A DNA stretch of 43,279 nucleotides from contig SUUB01000004.1 of NCBI GenBank assembly GCA_015062745.1, positions 62,323-105,601 of the forward strand, given 5' to 3'. Within the stretch, counting starts at the first letter, position 1; the number at the start of each line of letters is the position of its first letter. Below the pieces are notes generated by a model. That model was given only the letters and a program-made list of their open reading frames with translations. It did not search any database and was not told the DNA's origin. This DNA comes from Actinomycetaceae bacterium. Lineage in GTDB: Bacteria; Actinomycetota; Actinomycetes; Actinomycetales; Actinomycetaceae. Of the stretch, positions 4,150 through 42,718 are shown piece by piece. The position numbers and the translations under genes were made by a program.

Positions 4150-5280
4150 CTATCCGTAAAGAACATGCCGTTGAGCGGTGGTGAAACCCATCCTTTCGTA
4201 GAGAGACACAGCTGTCGTGTTGTCGGCGTCCGTGTACAGCCTGACCAATTTGGCACCGCGCTTGGTAATCAGCTGCAGTCCCGCCGCGGTCAATGCCGCA
4301 CCTAACCCGCGCCGTTGCGCCGTCGGCGCCACTCCAAGCACGTATAGCTCATACTCGGAAGGAACTTCCTCCGGTTTGAACCAAATAAAACCTTGCAGTT
4401 CGCCACCATCGGCCTCGGCAAGCAGGCAAAGGTCTGGATCGAACCAGTCCTGTTCGAAGCGCTGACGCATATCCGCCTCAGTCAGTTGCCCCTGTTCCGG
4501 ATGCGAAGCGAAGGCCGCAGCATTCAATGCGGTAAATGCCTCTAGATCCACACGCGGATCGAGCGCACGCAGGCGGAAGCCGCCTGCCGCCAAGACGCCG
4601 TCGGCAGTGTCGCGGGCGGAGGCGCCGCCGTCGCCAGAAGTACGGCCCTCGCCCGAAGCGCCGTCCCCATTCCCCTCCTCGCCAGCAGTTATCTCGCGCT
4701 GCAAGACAAGCAAAGCACGACGCGCAGTCAGATCGAACTCACTCGCCAACCGGGCGGCGGCAGGAAGATCGCCATGGGCCCACGCTCCTGCCACGGTATT
4801 CTCAGCGCGCGGGTCCATGCCGTGAACCTGCGAGTCACGCTCGAAAAGATCCGCATGTACCTTTCGTGCCAACGCTCGGCCATACCCCCGACGTCGGGCA
4901 TTCGGGCGCACCGCCAGCTCGACCGTGCCGGCACGCCCGAGATGCGCCAGCCCCGCCACCGCGAGTGGAGCCCCGGCCGGGGCTGGCACACTCTCCGTCG
5001 CCCGCTTCTCACACCCCTGCGTATCCGGGGCGCTCCCGCGCTCCTGCTGCGCCTTCTGCATGCCACCGTGATCTTCAGACGCCCCGGCGACGCCGGAAGT
5101 CGGGCCCACCGCGCCGTCGTCGTCAATCACCCATATGTGCGAATCCGGAGCCCCGGCAGCAACGTCAAGCAGGGTCTGCTCATCGAAGGGAGCGAACCCA
5201 TCTACCTGCTCGCACTGCCGGTTGATCGCTGCCAGCGTGTCCCGCCATGCCGCCGCAGGAAACGGCCCGCGCACCCTCAT
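4150..5280 (-). CDS. mshD: Mycothiol synthase (tandem GNAT acetyltransferase)
   Basis: Protein from MRVRGPFPAAAWRDTLAAINRQ..., two GNAT repeats (...VAGLAHLGRAGTVELAVRPNARRRGYGRAL... and ...LYVLGVAPTAQRRGLGAALTAAGL...LYERMGFTTAQRHVLYG). ORF-track start at 5400 is probably too far upstream. Confidence 0.85.
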   Translation of the reverse strand: MRVRGPFPAAAWRDTLAAINRQCEQVDGFAPFDEQTLLDVAAGAPDSHIWVIDDDGAVGPTSGVAGASEDHGGMQKAQQERGSAPDTQGCEKRATESVPAPAGAPLAVAGLAHLGRAGTVELAVRPNARRRGYGRALARKVHADLFERDSQVHGMDPRAENTVAGAWAHGDLPAAARLASEFDLTARRALLVLQREITAGEEGNGDGASGEGRTSGDGGASARDTADGVLAAGGFRLRALDPRVDLEAFTALNAAAFASHPEQGQLTEADMRQRFEQDWFDPDLCLLAEADGGELQGFIWFKPEEVPSEYELYVLGVAPTAQRRGLGAALTAAGLQLITKRGAKLVRLYTDADNTTAVSLYERMGFTTAQRHVLYG

Positions 5281-5906
5281 TCGAGCATGCCGTCTGTGGC
5301 CAACTTGCCAGCTGCTCGGAACTCGGCCGAGGTGAGCAGCATCGCGCGGTCGCGGCGGGTCACATCGGTGGCCAACGGGTGATCGCCAGTACCGATCCAC
5401 ACCGGATCAACCTCGCCGAGGAAGTTCGTCAAACGGGCGGAGTCCGTGAGCACGGCGGCGAAGTCACCTTCATATGTACCCGCCAAAACCGAATCCCACT
5501 CCTGGCGCACAGTTCCCGGTTTCGGGGTCATGGCAATCTTCTGCTCCCCGTCCGCCCCTTGGCGGCGCAGCACCTCCGCCGAAGCCTCGTAGCGCCGATT
5601 GACCTCAGCGCCCTCACGCCGGATCCATTCGCGCAGGAGGTAGCCACGCCACAGAATCCCCGGCAGGGTGTTCTCCGGCGAACGGATCCACGACTCGGCG
5701 ATCACGTCAACACCCTCTTCATCGACCAAGGCCAGAATGCGCTTGAAAGTCTCGGGATCCTCACCGCTATGATGCCGCCCCATTGGCACCAATGCCTGCG
5801 CCGAGGTGTGGGCAAGTTCCGAGTTGTAGGCGACGTCGGCCTCCCCTTCGATCGCCTCGATCTGATCCGCATCGAGCTGCGCGGGGCGCCTTGGCTTCTT
5901 GGTCAT
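5277..5906 (-). CDS. Conserved actinobacterial hypothetical protein
   Basis: MTKKPRRPAQLDADQIEAIEGEADVAYNSELAHTSAQAL...; stop overlaps the start of mshD (coupled). Start chosen at the internal Met after MLAIAPD...EEDV. Confidence 0.7.
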   Translation of the reverse strand: MTKKPRRPAQLDADQIEAIEGEADVAYNSELAHTSAQALVPMGRHHSGEDPETFKRILALVDEEGVDVIAESWIRSPENTLPGILWRGYLLREWIRREGAEVNRRYEASAEVLRRQGADGEQKIAMTPKPGTVRQEWDSVLAGTYEGDFAAVLTDSARLTNFLGEVDPVWIGTGDHPLATDVTRRDRAMLLTSAEFRAAGKLATDGMLE

Positions 5907-13939: not shown

Positions 13940-14347
13940 ATGGGTACGCAGTCGATCCGTTTCATTCTCGGGCCCACCCTGTGGATGAGCGCGAACCACT
14001 CCGGCCGGGTCAACCGGCACTGGGCCGTCACCCGGCGCAAGACAGCGGACCTGCGCCGCCTGGCAGTCATGCAGGCCCGCGCCCAGCACCTCCACCCCAC
14101 CCGTGGCCGCGTGCGAGTCACGGCATGGATCCAATACCCCACCCGTGGCCGGGCCGACCCGAACAACGCGGCACCAACCACGAAAGCCCTGATTGACGGA
14201 CTGACCGACGCGGGAATATGGCCCGACGACGACCACACCCACGTGATCGGCCCAGACCACCGCCGCGCCGACGGCACCTGCCCACGCGGCCTCCACATCA
14301 TCACACTAACCATCACCGAAGAAGCCAAGGAAGGGGAACGATCATGA
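13940..14347 (+). CDS. RusA-like Holliday junction resolvase
   Basis: …VRVTAWIQYPTRGRADPNNAAPTTKALIDGLTDAGIWPDDDHTHVIG…. Confidence 0.85.
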   Translation: MGTQSIRFILGPTLWMSANHSGRVNRHWAVTRRKTADLRRLAVMQARAQHLHPTRGRVRVTAWIQYPTRGRADPNNAAPTTKALIDGLTDAGIWPDDDHTHVIGPDHRRADGTCPRGLHIITLTITEEAKEGERS

Positions 14348-15393
14348 GCCTGCGTGCCATCCTCTGGGCGATCTACGAGGCCCCCGTCGACAACCCCACA
14401 TCCCGCCTAGTCCTCGTCGGACTAGCCGACCACGCCGCCGACGACGGCACCGGAGCATGGCCTTCCCACTCCATCCTCGCCACCGCAGCCCACTGCTCCC
14501 CCCGCACGATCCGCCGACACCTCCAAGCCCTCGAAGACGCCGGCGTGATCCACCGCGGGGACCAGCGCATCGTCAACCACCTACGCGCCGACCGCCGGCC
14601 CACCGTCTGGAACCTCAACCTCGACCACGCCGGCAGCACCCCCGCCACACACGCCACACCCACACAAAACCCCGAGCCCGAACCCGTCCCGGAAAACACC
14701 CACACCGAACCTGTGGATAACCCTGTGAACAACGCTGACGGTGAGACATTTTCCGTTCAGAACGGGGGGACAAATTGTCCCCCCGTGAAAACAGGTGAAA
14801 ACACCCATAATGGCGGAATCACGCCAAAAACCAACGGGGGGTCACACGTGTCCGGGCGGACACACGGGGGGTCACACGTGTCCTACAAACCTATAGAACC
14901 TATAGATACATATAACGCGCCCGCGCGCGACACCACACCCACGACCACGGCCACGGTGGAGGTCGCGCCGCCGCCGGCGGACGCGACACCACTGCCCGAG
15001 GCGTGGACGCCCAACCCCGACCACCTGGGGCTCGCCTGCGAACGCGGCCTATCCATCACCACCGAAGCCCACCGCTTCCGCCTCCACGCCCGCGAACACG
15101 CCCGACGGGCACGCGACTGGGACGCCGCCTTCACCCGCTGGCTCCTGGACACCGCGCCCCGCCCCACGCCCCGGCCCGCACGGCAACCATCCACAGCCGG
15201 AGCGGTCGCCACTGGCATCACCGCAGCAGCCGCAGCCCAAGCCCGTGAACGCGAACGGGAACGTGACCGCGAGCGCCGCCAAGCCGAAACCGCCCTAGTG
15301 GCGGCCTCATGGGCCGACCCGGCCAAACGAGCACAAGCCACAGCGGCGAAAGCACAGATCCGTCAACTCGTGGGAAGTAGGAGAGCATCGTGA
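14344..15393 (+). CDS. HTH replication initiator/helix-turn-helix replication protein
   Basis: MSLRAILWAIYEAPVDNPTSRLVLVGLADHAADDGTGAWPSHSILATAAHCSPRTIRRHLQALEDAGVI…; ORF-track start 14218 is upstream of the likely ATG at 14344. Confidence 0.82.
   Translation: MSLRAILWAIYEAPVDNPTSRLVLVGLADHAADDGTGAWPSHSILATAAHCSPRTIRRHLQALEDAGVIHRGDQRIVNHLRADRRPTVWNLNLDHAGSTPATHATPTQNPEPEPVPENTHTEPVDNPVNNADGETFSVQNGGTNCPPVKTGENTHNGGITPKTNGGSHVSGRTHGGSHVSYKPIEPIDTYNAPARDTTPTTTATVEVAPPPADATPLPEAWTPNPDHLGLACERGLSITTEAHRFRLHAREHARRARDWDAAFTRWLLDTAPRPTPRPARQPSTAGAVATGITAAAAAQARERERERDRERRQAETALVAASWADPAKRAQATAAKAQIRQLVGSRRAS
14712..14915. other. Candidate phage replication origin inside the replication gene
   Basis: DnaA-box-like TGTGGATAA (14712..14720) and TGTGAACAA (14724..14732); 25-bp palindrome 14762..14786; ACGGGGGGTCACACGTGTCC repeats 14834..14853 and 14864..14883; ACCTATAGA x2 in AT-rich 14884..14915. 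Confidence 0.6.
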
Positions 15394-15872
15394 GTGGAGA
15401 ACCCATCGTCACCCTGATCGGCCATGTCGGAGCCGATCCCGAGATCCGGTACGTCGCGTCCGGCACGCCAGTGTGTAACTTCAACCTGGCGGTTACGCCG
15501 CGCACCCTCAACCGGCAAACGAACCAATGGGAGAACGGCACCACCGCCTGGTACCGGTGCACGATCTGGCGTGAGCATGGCGAGCATGTCGCTGAGACCA
15601 TCCAGAAAGGCATGCGCGTGATCGTGACCGGCCGGTTGACTGTCCGCACGTACGAGCACGACGGGGCCGAGCGGACCGCGCTGGAGGTCGCCGTTGACGA
15701 GATCGGCCCCACCCTGCGCTATGCGACCGCGCACGTCACCAAAACCACCAACACCAACGGCCAAGCTCACAGCCAGGTCCAGGGACAGGCGGGCGATGAC
15801 TACGACCCATGGGCCGGACAGACCAACACCCCGTCCGGTTCCGCGTTCGACACCACTCTTCCGCCCTTCTAA
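15390..15872 (+). CDS. ssb: Single-stranded DNA-binding protein
   Basis: VTLIGHVGADPEIRYVASGTPVCNFNLAVTPR...WYRCTIWREHGEHVAETIQKGMRVIVTGRL; acidic tail ...DTTLPPF. Confidence 0.95.
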   Translation: MSGEPIVTLIGHVGADPEIRYVASGTPVCNFNLAVTPRTLNRQTNQWENGTTAWYRCTIWREHGEHVAETIQKGMRVIVTGRLTVRTYEHDGAERTALEVAVDEIGPTLRYATAHVTKTTNTNGQAHSQVQGQAGDDYDPWAGQTNTPSGSAFDTTLPPF

Positions 15873-29400: not shown

Positions 29401-29855
29401 GACGGCTCGGCGATCTGCTGTCCCGGTGGGAGCCGCAGATCCGAGCCGACCTCGCCTCCGAATATGCCGCTGACCTGTCCCAGCTGGTCGAAGATTCCCG
29501 CTACCGGCACCTACTCGTCCTCATCGACCAACTACCAGCCACTGCCCGGGTACGGGCAGCCATGTTGGACGATGACGACTACGTGGCCGGCCTGCCCGAC
29601 CCTGCCTCAGGGGATACGCCGAGCAGGCCAGCCATATACGGGTGGACGCAGGAGACGGAACTGCTCGCGTCCCTGCTGGACACGATGCGTAGCCTGCAGC
29701 AGGTCGTCGTCCGCGCGTTCGGCGGGCAGGGACGCCGGCCGGACCCGATCCCCCGCCCCGAAACCGCGTGGGACAGACGCAGGAACGCGACCCCGCAAGC
29801 CTCGCAAGACCTGGTGGACATGTTCACCCGAGAGACAGGAGACGGTGTCCCATGA
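29367..29855 (+). CDS. Tail assembly chaperone, downstream (T-like) frame made by -1 frameshift
   Basis: ...GGIRRLGDLLSRWEPQIRADLASEYAADLSQLVEDSRYRHLLVLIDQLPATARVRAAMLDDDDYVAGLP; slippery GGGGGAA at 29391..29397. Confidence 0.75.
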   Translation: MGDRRIVGGGIRRLGDLLSRWEPQIRADLASEYAADLSQLVEDSRYRHLLVLIDQLPATARVRAAMLDDDDYVAGLPDPASGDTPSRPAIYGWTQETELLASLLDTMRSLQQVVVRAFGGQGRRPDPIPRPETAWDRRRNATPQASQDLVDMFTRETGDGVP

Positions 29856-32800
29856 CCCGTATCGGCATCGCGACAGTCCAAATCCAACCCTCATTCAAGG
29901 GATTCCAGGCATCGGCGAAGAAATCCATCCTTGCAGAACTCGGCCCCCTCGGTAAGGAGATCGGGGATGGCACGGGAGGCCGGTTCGGAACACATATCCT
30001 GTCCTCTGCAGGCCAGAAACTAAAGGCTGGTGCTGCTAAGGTCGCGAAGATTGGCGGCGGCCTGTTCGCTACCGGGCTGACCGTCTCCCTGACGAAGGGA
30101 TTCACCCGGTCAAAAGCGATCGAGGAGGCAGAAGCGAAACTGCGTGGCCTGGGGAAGTCCACGCAGGAAGTTTCCGCGATCATGGACGATGCCCTGAAGT
30201 CCGTGCAGGGCACCGCCTACGGCTTAGATGAAGCGTCCACCACTGCTGGCATCCTCGTCGCCGCCGGCGTCAAATCCGGTGAAGAGCTCGAGAAGACGTT
30301 GAAGCTTGTCGCGGACTCCGCGACGATCGCCGGCCGAGACATGGGCGATATGGGCCTGATCTGGAGCTCCGTCGCATCCCAGGGCAAACTGCAGGGCCAG
30401 GACGCCATGCAGCTCATGCAGTCCGGCATCCCGATTTGGCAGATGGTCGGCGACGTCATGGGCGTCACCGCCGCCGAAGCCCAAGAACTCGGCTCCAAAG
30501 GACAAGTGTCCTTCGAGATCTTCCGGAAAGCCATGGAAGAAGGCGTGGGCGGGGCAGCCCTGTCCGCCGGTGAAACCACGACCGGCGCGTTCAAAAACTT
30601 CATGGCGTCCGTATCCCGCTTCGGTCAGACCCTGCTGCAAGACATTTACCCGATGATCGGCCCCGCCCTGAAAAGCCTCACATCATGGGTTGACGGCCTG
30701 GCCGGTAAGGCCGGCCCCGCCATCGAAAACGTGATCGACGGCCTACGAGGCGTCGCCAGCATCCTCTTCAAAGGCGACTTCACCGGATCCTTCTGGGGAC
30801 TAGAAGAAGACTCTCCTGTCATCGGCTTCCTGTTCAGGCTGAGGGAAACCGCGATTGACGTGTTCGGCCGCCTCCGCTCCGGCCTGGCGTCCTTCGCTGA
30901 GGGTGTGAAAGGAATCTTCAATATCCTCGTGCGAGGAGATTTCACGTCCTTCTGGGGAATGGAAGAAGACTCCCCGTTCGTGGACGCCCTGTTCAAGGTA
31001 CGGGAGTTTATCGGCTCCGCGTGGGACACAATCCGCGACGTCGTACCAAAAATCGTATCCATCGTCCGAGAGCAAGTATTCCCCGCGATCAAAGATACGA
31101 TCGTCTGGCTATGGGACCACAAAGACTGGGTCGCCGCCTGGGTGGCCGCGCTCGCTGGCGCGTTCGCCGCCTACAAGATCGGGAAGAAGATCACCGAAGT
31201 TGTCACGGCACTCGGTAAGATCGCGCCTGCGATATCCAAGGCGATGAAGGTACTCATGGCGAACCCGGTCGTGCTGATCATCGCCGCGATCGTCGGCGTC
31301 CTCATCCTCTTGTGGACCAAATGTGAGGCGTTCCGGGACGCTGTGAAGACGATCGTTGCCACGATCGGCCGGATCGTGAAAACCGTCTGGGAGAACGTCA
31401 TCCGACCCGCGTTCGAAGCGGTCCGTTCGTTCATCATGGATACGCTCGTCCCGGCCCTGACATCGTTCTGGCAGAACACGGTCCAACCGATCATCACGAA
31501 GGTCGGGGAGATCCTTCGGAACGTGTGGGAAGGCGTGATCCGGCCGGTGATCGCCGCGCTGATTGAGTTCGTGACCGAGCGGCTGATTCCCACCGTCATG
31601 TCCCTGTGGCGGAACGTCATCCAGCCGGTCGTGACCGCCATCATGGGGTTCATTAAGGGCGCGTGGGAGAACGTTATCCAGCCTGTGTTCGCGACGATCA
31701 AGAACGTTATCTCCAACGTGCTCGGCCCGATTTTCACCTGGCTGTACGAGACGATCATTCGCCCAGTGTGGGACAAGATCACCGAGGCGATCCGTATCGC
31801 ATGGGGCATTATCCAGATTATCTGGGACACGATCAAATGGACGATTGATAACGTGCTCGGCCCCGTGTTCACCTGGCTGTGGGAAAAGGTCATTCAGCCG
31901 GCCTGGGAAGGGATTTCCGGGGCGATCAGCTGGGCGTGGGAGCATGTTATTTCACCCGCGTTTGAGGCGGTCAAGGACGCTGTCGGCCTGGTCGGTGAAG
32001 CGTTCGAAACCGTGAAAGATGTCGTGGTGGGCGCGTGGGAGACCATGGTGAACCTGCTGGTCAAGCCGATCAATTTCGTGATCGGCACCGTGTACAACAA
32101 CGGTATCCGGAAAGCGTTCAACTGGGTCGCGCAGGCTGTCGGCTCGTCCATCCGGTTGGAGGAAGCCTCAACGATTAACCCGTTCCCATCCCAGTCCACG
32201 TCGAAACCGTCAACGTCGGGAAGGCTGGCTGCTGGCCCGCTGAACTGGGAGGCGCGTGCGAAAGGCGGGTGGACCCCTCCCGGGTGGACCCTGGTCGGTG
32301 AGGAAGGCCCCGAGCTGGTGAACTTTTCCCGGCCGTCCCGCGTGTACACGGCCGAGGAAACAGCGGCAGCCCTGGCAGGTGCGGATATCTCCCCGTATCT
32401 GCGGCCGGACCGCATGTACACCCCGGATGAAGCCTGGACCGCGATCCACGCGTTGAAAACGGGTGACCAACGCCTGTTGCAGGGCGCGCTCGGGCCGTCC
32501 CCGTCGCAGTCCCTGCTGCCGATTGGTGGATTCTGGGACAGTCTCGGTCATGCTTGGTCGAAAACGTGGCGGGGCGTGAAAGATTTCGTCGCCGATGGGA
32601 TCTCCTGGGTGCGTGGCCGCTTGGCCGACGCCGCCGGACTCGTCCTCAACCCGATCAAAGAACAGATCGCGTCCATGGTCGAAGGCCACGGCACGATTTC
32701 CGACATGGTCGGTGATGCGTTCCGCCGTACGATCGACAACCTGCTCGAGTGGGTGCGCGGCGTCGACGAGGAGTCCAACGAGTCCGGGGAGACCTCGGAA

Positions 32801-33520
32801 GCGAAGAACAATGCGGCGGCCATGAACGAGGCTGCCGTCTCCGGCGCGGACCTGAAGGAACTCCAACGCAATGCTGTCGTTCTGGGTGGGGTGACGCGTC
32901 GCCCTGTTAAGGGTGGCGTGCTCACGTCGACGTTCGGCGTTTCCCGCTACGGCGGCTACCATGCGGGCATCGACCTGGCCGCACCGACCGGCACTCCGGT
33001 GTATGCGTACCGGTCCGGCACCGTGCTCGGCACCGGGTGGAACGTCCTGGCGGGCCGGTCCGGGATCGGCATCATGCTGTCCCATGGCCAGTATGGCGGC
33101 TCCTACTACGGTCATTTGTCCGCGTCGAAGGTTCACCGGGGCCAGGCGGTCACCGCCGGCCAACTGATCGGCCTGGTCGGCGCGACAGGTAACGCGACCG
33201 GCCCCCACTTGCACTGGGAGCTGAACAGGGGCAACTGGCAATCCCCGTACAATCCGTTGCCGTTCCTCCCAGCATATGACCAGGGCGGTTGGCTCCTGCC
33301 TGGTATGGGCACGGTCGCGAACCTGACCGGCAGCCCAGAGCCCGTCCTCACCCAGGCCCAGTGGGATGCGATCTCGACCCTGGCGGCACGAGGTGCCGGG
33401 GTTGGTCTGCCGGACCGGGTGACCCTCGTGGATGCGGACGGGTCAATCCTCGCACGGGCCCGCGTGGTCGCCGGTGAGGTTGTCGAGCGGGCAGCCGACG
33501 AGGCTGCACGATGGGAGTAG
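29852..33520 (+). CDS. Tape measure protein with C-terminal M23 metallopeptidase domain
   Basis: 1222 aa; hydrophobic/W-rich repeats; GGVLTSTFGVSRYGGYHAGIDLAAPTGTPVYAYRSGTVL...GHLSASKVHRGQAVTAGQLIGLVGATGNATGPHLHWEL. Confidence 0.92.
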   Translation: MTRIGIATVQIQPSFKGFQASAKKSILAELGPLGKEIGDGTGGRFGTHILSSAGQKLKAGAAKVAKIGGGLFATGLTVSLTKGFTRSKAIEEAEAKLRGLGKSTQEVSAIMDDALKSVQGTAYGLDEASTTAGILVAAGVKSGEELEKTLKLVADSATIAGRDMGDMGLIWSSVASQGKLQGQDAMQLMQSGIPIWQMVGDVMGVTAAEAQELGSKGQVSFEIFRKAMEEGVGGAALSAGETTTGAFKNFMASVSRFGQTLLQDIYPMIGPALKSLTSWVDGLAGKAGPAIENVIDGLRGVASILFKGDFTGSFWGLEEDSPVIGFLFRLRETAIDVFGRLRSGLASFAEGVKGIFNILVRGDFTSFWGMEEDSPFVDALFKVREFIGSAWDTIRDVVPKIVSIVREQVFPAIKDTIVWLWDHKDWVAAWVAALAGAFAAYKIGKKITEVVTALGKIAPAISKAMKVLMANPVVLIIAAIVGVLILLWTKCEAFRDAVKTIVATIGRIVKTVWENVIRPAFEAVRSFIMDTLVPALTSFWQNTVQPIITKVGEILRNVWEGVIRPVIAALIEFVTERLIPTVMSLWRNVIQPVVTAIMGFIKGAWENVIQPVFATIKNVISNVLGPIFTWLYETIIRPVWDKITEAIRIAWGIIQIIWDTIKWTIDNVLGPVFTWLWEKVIQPAWEGISGAISWAWEHVISPAFEAVKDAVGLVGEAFETVKDVVVGAWETMVNLLVKPINFVIGTVYNNGIRKAFNWVAQAVGSSIRLEEASTINPFPSQSTSKPSTSGRLAAGPLNWEARAKGGWTPPGWTLVGEEGPELVNFSRPSRVYTAEETAAALAGADISPYLRPDRMYTPDEAWTAIHALKTGDQRLLQGALGPSPSQSLLPIGGFWDSLGHAWSKTWRGVKDFVADGISWVRGRLADAAGLVLNPIKEQIASMVEGHGTISDMVGDAFRRTIDNLLEWVRGVDEESNESGETSEAKNNAAAMNEAAVSGADLKELQRNAVVLGGVTRRPVKGGVLTSTFGVSRYGGYHAGIDLAAPTGTPVYAYRSGTVLGTGWNVLAGRSGIGIMLSHGQYGGSYYGHLSASKVHRGQAVTAGQLIGLVGATGNATGPHLHWELNRGNWQSPYNPLPFLPAYDQGGWLLPGMGTVANLTGSPEPVLTQAQWDAISTLAARGAGVGLPDRVTLVDADGSILARARVVAGEVVERAADEAARWE

Positions 33521-40823: not shown

Positions 40824-40844
40824 CTCCTTCCGTTTGACACTAAT

Positions 40845-40873
40845 ATTCTATCCAATTATTTGTCAATTGACAA
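40845..40873 (-). promoter_or_regulatory. Promoter TTGTCA-17-TAGAAT with overlapping palindromic operator TTGTCAATTGACAA
   Basis: Palindrome 40860..40873 covers the -35 (40873..40868); -10 at 40850..40845. Confidence 0.6.
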
Positions 40874-40926
40874 GCGGAAGGGTGTGGGGCAGTTGTGTGT
40901 TCTGCCACGTTCCAACTATTGCCCGG

Positions 40927-41479: not shown

Positions 41480-42718
41480 TTATGGTTGCAGATTCGGCAG
41501 CAGCGTCGTCATGTACTGGTCATAGGCGGCAACGGCGTCGAGCTGATCTTCGACTTCGCGGTGCGTGTAGTGGGCGGTCATGTCCTCAGACGAGTGGCCC
41601 ATGATCTCTTGTCGTGTCCGGTCGGCGATGCCGGCGGCCCTCATGAGCGTCGCGGTGGAGTGTCGCAGCGCGTACAGCGGGTAGTGCGGCAGGGCGGCTC
41701 GCTCCAGCATCTCACACCACATGTCATAGTCCCGGCGCGGATGCACCGGCACCCCAGGAGATGTTTCGAACACGAACCGGGCCGGCGGAACGTCAAGCAC
41801 CTCAAAATACCTGGTCATAACCTGTACCGCGAGCGCACCAAGAGCGATCGGCCGGGTTGATCGGACGGACTTGGGTGGGAGGAGCCAGAGACTACCATGC
41901 ACCTGCTCGGCGTCGAGGTGGTCGGGGACGTGGAAGCGGCGGGCGGGACAGTCAGCGGCCCGCTTGCGGCCGCAGGTGTTATGGCAGCCGTGGGCGTACG
42001 ACAGGGCGGCGAGTTCGCGGGTGAGGGATACCCAGGCGGCTCCTGGCGTCAGGTCGAGGCGGTAGAGCTCGAGACCGAGTATCTCACCCTGTCGGGCGGA
42101 GGTGAGCAGGGCGAGGATGACACGGGCAAGGTAGGGCTGGTCCGCGTTGGCGGTGATGAGCTGCACGAGGTGCTCTGGCGGCATGGCGTCCCGGCGGCCT
42201 GTCTTCGCGCGGGGAGCATCGGCGGCGCGCACCGGGTTCCGGCGGATAAGCCCCTTCCTTTCGGCGTCGGCGAAGGCGCGGCCGAGGATCCGATGTGTTT
42301 GGAGTGCGCTCGCGGCGGCCCCGCCGCTGTCGATGATTCCGGCGGTTACGCGCTCGATATCGAGTGGCGTGATTTTGTCGAGGTGCCGCCGGCCGATGAC
42401 GGGCAGGACATGTAGCTCGATCTTGGATCGGTATCCGTCCCACGTGGAGGGTTTGAGCGTGGTGCGGCGTAGGGTGAGCCAGTCGGTGAGGTAGGTGGCC
42501 ACGGTCGGTGTTTGGGTGGCGAGGTCTCCGGCGGCGTCGAGCTCGCGGCGCATCTCCGCCAACTTTCGCTGCGCGACGCTTTTGGTCCGGCCGGTGCGTA
42601 CCTTCCGGCGCTGCTTCCCCGTGAGCGGATCGGACGGGAGGGTGAGGGCAGCGCACCACTTACCGTCGGCCCGCTGGTAGATCGATCCGGATCCGGCGTC
42701 CCGACGCTTCGTCGCCAT
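41480..42718 (-). CDS. int: Tyrosine-type site-specific integrase
   Basis: N-terminal SAM-like arm domain and catalytic LYALRHSTATLMRAAGIADRTRQEIMGHSSEDMTAHYTHR; adjacent to attR. Confidence 0.95.
   Translation of the reverse strand: MATKRRDAGSGSIYQRADGKWCAALTLPSDPLTGKQRRKVRTGRTKSVAQRKLAEMRRELDAAGDLATQTPTVATYLTDWLTLRRTTLKPSTWDGYRSKIELHVLPVIGRRHLDKITPLDIERVTAGIIDSGGAAASALQTHRILGRAFADAERKGLIRRNPVRAADAPRAKTGRRDAMPPEHLVQLITANADQPYLARVILALLTSARQGEILGLELYRLDLTPGAAWVSLTRELAALSYAHGCHNTCGRKRAADCPARRFHVPDHLDAEQVHGSLWLLPPKSVRSTRPIALGALAVQVMTRYFEVLDVPPARFVFETSPGVPVHPRRDYDMWCEMLERAALPHYPLYALRHSTATLMRAAGIADRTRQEIMGHSSEDMTAHYTHREVEDQLDAVAAYDQYMTTLLPNLQP

Follow-up and report, generated by a model that had tools for sequence, protein, structure and literature searches.

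A putative phage replication origin carried inside its own initiator gene, with relatives across an HTH_36 initiator family

The stretch of DNA analysed here (the window, 43,279 bp in all) contains a gene for a phage-type replication initiator whose central part is densely packed with repeats. We read this cluster, with a probability of roughly 0.88, as the place where an integrated actinobacterial phage starts its replication, an origin lying within the phage's own initiator gene and used by the mechanism proposed below. The actinobacterial setting is deduced from relatives. It is sequence comparison that reveals the anatomy of the cluster, its conservation at the DNA level, the order of its elements and the covariation of residue 58 of the initiator with base 4 of its sites, and such comparisons find this layout again in hundreds of phage genes that are only distantly related.

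The initiator gene and its repeat cluster

In a profile search, the product of the gene starting at 14344 matched HTH_36 (E=1.7e-10, 41 bits against a cut-off of 25), and its best PHROG was phrog_1032, replication initiation protein (E=1.6e-35), so that the protein falls within both profile families. An AlphaFold model of the product has a confident winged-helix in the first 90 residues (pLDDT >90) with the recognition helix at residues 53-65, a linker of pLDDT <50 over most of residues 100-197, and a confident helical part at about residues 211-270; it is in this predicted disordered linker that the cluster is encoded. A fold search with the same protein returned weak generic winged-helix matches only (E 0.02 or worse). 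The C-terminal part resembles the DnaT domain below threshold (E=0.096; E=0.0043 in one relative, L168), which is at most a pointer to helicase loading. Among the early-region proteins scanned, none was recognisable as a helicase or as a loader of one. The features of the region are as follows.

13940..14347, plus strand: RusA-like Holliday junction resolvase, the upstream neighbour (phrog_34, E=4.1e-24)
14344..15393, plus strand: initiator gene, 349 aa, with an N-terminal winged-helix, a disordered linker and a helical C-terminal region
14515..14517, plus strand: codon CGA, encoding Arg58 of the recognition helix (53-65); this residue covaries with half-site base 4
14712..14720, minus strand: DnaA box TTATCCACA, from a motif search of the window
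14724..14732, minus strand: second DnaA box TTGTTCACA, 3 bp from the first, from the same kind of search
14762..14786, no strand assigned: palindromic iteron 1, formed by a head-to-head pair of GGGGGGACA half-sites
14834..14853, plus strand: iteron 2, ACGGGGGGTCACACGTGTCC, exact repeat of 20 bp
14848..14863, no strand assigned: inverted repeat GTGTCC-GGGC-GGACAC, joining iterons 2 and 3
14864..14883, plus strand: iteron 3, ACGGGGGGTCACACGTGTCC, exact repeat of 20 bp
14881..14917, plus strand: AT-rich tract, a putative unwinding region; it contains two copies of AACCTATAG at period 9 and occupies the place where the family has its phased GAACCRTC repeats
15390..15872, plus strand: single-strand DNA-binding protein, the downstream neighbour (SSB, E=4.8e-28)

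The cluster had been described in an earlier note made from the letters of this DNA, and window-wide counts together with synonymous shuffles confirmed that the whole of it is present and exceeds chance. That note had placed a perfect DnaA box on the complementary strand with a second, degenerate one 3 bp away; both were recovered (14712-14720 and 14724-14732), and TTRTNCACA has no other match in the 43,279-bp window. The note had also listed a 25-bp palindrome, ACGGGGGGACAAATTGTCCCCCCGT; it is found at 14762-14786 and is the window's only perfect inverted repeat with arms of at least 10 bp and a loop of at most 3. When the linker was recoded by synonymous-codon shuffling with peptide and codon usage fixed, arms of at least 12 bp appeared in 4 of 2000 shuffles (p = 0.0025). 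The whole window holds four GGGGGGWCA half-sites, all of them within 14764-14874. The 20-bp exact repeat ACGGGGGGTCACACGTGTCC, claimed at a 30-bp period, lies at 14834-14853 and 14864-14883, a length of direct repeat attained in 0 of 300 synonymous shuffles (maximum 19), and the GTGTCC-GGGC-GGACAC element said to separate its copies was located at 14848-14863. The AT-rich tract does stand out as reported, with 71% AT in the 34 bp tested, which places it among the two most AT-rich 34-bp tracts of the window. The repeat described within it is indeed present in two copies, but its unit had to be corrected to AACCTATAG, at period 9 (14888-14896 and 14897-14905).

The other, equally AT-rich tract of the window (40827-40876) is near the integrase (41480-42718, minus strand), and the window's AT-tract repeat also occurs on a viral contig (L084), where ACCTATAGAACCTATAGA is present in three head-to-tail copies at 2920-2973. 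Elsewhere in the window, a 416-aa protein (4150-5400, minus strand) that adjoins the early region has a C-terminal GNAT acetyltransferase domain (about residues 308-406), and the C-terminal part of the 1250-aa tape measure protein (29768-33520) is peptidase- or endolysin-like, with PHROG tail and lysis matches. Searched against phages by megablast, 22 kb of the window gave no match.

Conservation in relatives and across the family

A first protein scan with the full-length window protein found no relative in genome contigs; relatives there were recovered with an alignment of the DNA-binding domain instead. The nearest relatives are L004, which is identical to the window in the initiator gene, and L005, whose protein is 78% identical to that of the window over the aligned protein (74% in the best tblastn segment). 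L005 retains the 25-bp palindrome and 45 nt of the AT tract without change. The centre of iteron 2 reads CATATG for the window's CACGTG, a paired change that keeps the dyad and replaces Val with Met, and iteron 3 has an improved dyad (GGACAC with GTGTCC). Both DnaA boxes are missing, the stretch that carried them being gone. The suggestion that the cluster would be conserved while the encoded linker is not was therefore borne out for the palindrome and the AT tract, which were kept as the flanking linker diverged, but not for the DnaA boxes. Synonymous changes between the window and L005 were not significantly rarer in the cluster (7/61) than elsewhere (42/201; p = 0.13), and since this pairwise signal is weak, the case for conservation is made from the family. 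A third genome copy of the repeat in L003, with 3 mismatches, was rejected as a chance match that sits in a long oxidase-like reading frame.

Across 85 dereplicated relatives, found by protein similarity and supplemented with phage records, the number of linker bases in inverted 7-mer pairs averaged 56, compared with 22 in synonymous shuffles. An excess of inverted repeats at p 0.05 or less was observed in the linker of 46 of the 85 genes, in the N-terminal part of 7 and in the C-terminal part of 4, where about 4 would be expected. In addition, GGGG plus a 5-mer was repeated in the linker of 135 of 204 genes (21 expected), a set about half of which came from a DNA scan for the AACC-type repeat. 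Linker repeats beyond those of synonymous shuffles across the family agree with the prediction that the cluster is conserved in related genes at the DNA level. The commonest half-sites in the family are GGGGTGACA and GGGGTGCAN, and those of the window are of the GGGGGGACA type. A blind scan with the window's own iteron pattern, ACGGGGGGWCAN{2,5}TGTCC, retrieved 47 viral contigs, in 8 of which the pattern lies in the initiator gene; two of these 8 belong to the window's own lineage. The initiator genes of six otherwise distant viruses, L036 (IMGVR_UViG_2784132099_000001), L039, L048, L052, L071 and L077, match the window iteron pattern exactly, the initiators of L052 and L077 being near-identical to one another.

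For a second repeat, AACCRTC, the 85 linkers contain 87 copies against 17 expected, and a single one on the opposite strand; the commonest spacing is 11 bp, and all three reading frames are used (48, 26 and 19). When 2.9 million viral contigs were scanned blind at the DNA level for GAACCRTCNNTGAACCRTC, at least 120 contigs matched, compared with 24 for the reversed pattern. Among the matches listed, 104 of 127 sites lay in the sense orientation inside ORFs with the initiator domain (0 of 26 for the reversed control), and a good part of the remaining listed sites resemble initiators cut by contig ends. The domain model used for this assignment is independent of the AACC repeat, because it was built from the protein-found set. 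The consensus GAACCRTC is common, not universal, in the family, and the window itself carries in the same place the degenerate AACCTATAG, twice at period 9, rather than the consensus at 11.

The linker is repetitive as a peptide as well (NGGS, GGSHVS), and many relatives share peptides of the EPSLN type, as would be expected if a low-complexity linker were constrained at the protein level and its motifs were important as peptide. We give this explanation very little credence: the repeats exceed those of shuffles that preserve the peptide, AACCRTC units fall in every reading frame, paired changes keep the DNA dyad and alter the amino acid, and the linker is predicted to be disordered. The EPSLN-like peptides repeated in many phage proteins are translations of the DNA repeat in different frames.

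The elements also keep an order. In the protein-found sets, the AACC block was 3' of the iterons in 31 of 31 scorable genes, and DnaA boxes were 5' of them in 19 of 19. TTRTCCACA was counted 33 times in the linkers of 234 dereplicated genes, spread over 26 of them, where about 2 occurrences were expected. The window has two DnaA boxes and the family is enriched in them, yet they are absent in L005; judged from these counts, DnaA boxes are a recurring but optional component of the putative family origins. The order that emerges from the comparison is fixed: optional DnaA boxes, palindromic iterons, and then the strand-specific GAACCRTC repeat at about 11-bp spacing. Many matches to initiators of the GIANHDGDGG type (L416-L495) are on contigs of about 15-17 kb, which perhaps represent a group of small phages, satellites or plasmids that share this kind of origin.

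Within the origin reading, it is possible, if somewhat doubtful, that the AT tract and AACC repeats form a second binding array, for the initiator or for a host protein, rather than a melting site. With a mean of 49% AT in the 39 nt around the motif, the family repeat is no more than moderately rich in AT; it is also strand-specific, with near-helical spacing, and all of this would suit such an array. The window version, by contrast, reaches 71% AT and the AT maximum of the gene falls within residues 95-205 in 81% of relatives, which favours melting.

Residue 58 of the initiator and base 4 of the half-site

In an earlier class listing, half-site classes had sorted by residue 58. With base 4 defined as the fourth base after GGGG in the half-site, 57 dereplicated genes divided into 30 with Arg and C and 27 with another, uncharged residue and A, with none in either mixed class (Arg/A 0, other/C 0); the association has a Fisher value of 7e-17, uncorrected for relatedness, and the next-best alignment column 5e-4. 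On a tree, each trait changed 10 times, and the independent contrasts on well-supported branches numbered only 3, all of them concordant, with the alignments being short. We then turned to 31 new genes less than 85% identical to the training set, among which Arg was paired with C in 21 of 21 cases, N, S, T or Y with A in 4 of 4 and, unforeseen, Lys with C in 6 of 6. A half-site could be called in 94 of 204 training genes and 52 of 160 test genes. The rule as it had been preset, Arg if and only if C, failed in its second half for Lys (6 genes), and Lys is treated as ambiguous because two genes in the earlier class listing pair Lys58 with A. The window, with palindromic iterons in its linker, combines Arg58 with C at base 4.

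That a base of the half-site tracks a residue of the recognition helix is comparative evidence pointing to an initiator that reads these sites, and the simplest interpretation of the Arg58-C pairing would be an Arg-guanine contact, of a kind familiar from protein-DNA recognition in general.

Proteins of this winged-helix fold are mostly transcription factors, and the covariation at residue 58 bears on site recognition and not on replication. The palindromes could on that account be operators through which the protein autoregulates its own operon, with the origin elsewhere. We consider this unlikely, given that the sites lie some 420-540 bp inside the gene and not at its start, that they are followed by an ordered AT-rich/AACC block and preceded by DnaA boxes, as an origin would have, and that the top PHROG for this protein is annotated as replication initiation. 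Less probable still is a role in RNA, in which the cluster would fold into hairpins for attenuation or processing of the early transcript. A perfect 25-bp palindrome would indeed pair strongly as RNA too, but no run of T follows it, and a hairpin leaves both the DnaA boxes and the base-by-residue match with the recognition helix unexplained.

Proposed mechanism and known in-gene origins

Under the preferred reading of the cluster as an origin, we infer a course of events in which dimers of the 14344 product would occupy the three palindromic GGGGGGWCA sites through the winged-helix domain, and Arg58 would directly contact the G opposite base 4 (C) in every half-site. DnaA at the two boxes just upstream would assist assembly, and the assembly would melt the AT-rich AACC-repeat tract just downstream of the iterons, where helicase would be loaded and replication would start. 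The linker peptide, being unstructured, would tolerate whatever the DNA signals happen to encode. These steps (initiator binding, optional DnaA, AT opening and helicase loading) follow precedents in lambda and P1 (PMC7466680, PMC5043065, PMC9948254).

Origins inside initiator genes are already known from lambda, Stx phages, P1, TP901-1 and Tuc2009. Lambda has its ori within O, where the iterons adjoin an AT-rich tract that unwinding requires (PMC7466680). The window has the same arrangement of palindromic iterons mid-gene followed just 3' by an AT-rich tract, so that the lambda O/ori-lambda comparison drawn in the earlier note stands as a likeness in manner of working. It needs one refinement, in that the window protein lies outside the Phage_rep_O family: lambda O matches PF04492 at 5.7e-36, whereas the window protein is an HTH_36 protein with no PF04492 match. 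Lambda O was not reported by the family HMM, and the two systems differ in iteron sequences, spacing and AACC repeats. Bridging PHROGs, phrog_391 and phrog_678 for example, match both the window-type protein and Phage_rep_O. From its sequence, the 14344 protein appears to work like lambda O without being a member of that family.

P1 RepL/oriL likewise has its origin inside the initiator gene and requires an AT tract in the coding sequence: synonymous changes in the internal AT tract of repL block replication, whereas changes in the DnaA boxes do not (PMC9948254). The RepL winged-helix domain is distantly similar to the window family (E about 1e-5), and no tandem AACC repeats were found in P1 repL. 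For the lactococcal phages TP901-1 and Tuc2009, PMC8965321 reports a replisome organizer that recognises direct repeats lying in its own gene, and these repeats function as the origin of the phage; by that description, they resemble the window in having repeats inside their own initiator gene.

Closer in sequence are the initiators of Arthrobacter, Gordonia and Bifidobacterium phages (the phrog_1032 group), which are annotated as helix-turn-helix or replication initiation proteins. Those of Arthrobacter and Gordonia phages share a homologous winged-helix domain with 48-60% identity to the window, and Arthrobacter phages, like the window, have RusA next to the initiator. Many relatives in the phrog_1032 group have linker iterons, with half-sites mostly of the GGGGTGACA or GGGGTGCA types, and no origin was annotated in the stretches viewed of the Arthrobacter, Gordonia and Bifidobacterium phage records. 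Relative to the known in-gene origins, the apparently new components are the GAACCRTC element and the residue-58 rule: in the open library searched, which is not proof of novelty, we found no description of the element and no paper describing the rule.

More broadly, we lean towards the view that HTH_36 initiators, in phages and prophages of several bacterial groups, define a large class of origins that are self-contained and built to a fixed plan. Each would combine palindromic iterons, in which residue 58 dictates base 4 (C for Arg, A for a small or polar residue), with DnaA boxes in some cases and with a strand-specific GAACCRTC repeat, spaced at about 11 bp, that acts in strand opening or helicase loading. 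If this is true, the specificity of an initiator could be read, and its origin located, from sequence alone. The window has lambda's arrangement in an initiator family without an annotated origin in the phage records viewed. One 19-base pattern, with about 80% of its listed sites in initiator genes, gives a practical means of finding phage origins, and the pairing of residue 58 with base 4 offers a testable one-residue, one-base recognition rule. The linker, finally, illustrates how the peptide of a coding region can be for the most part a side effect of signals in the DNA.
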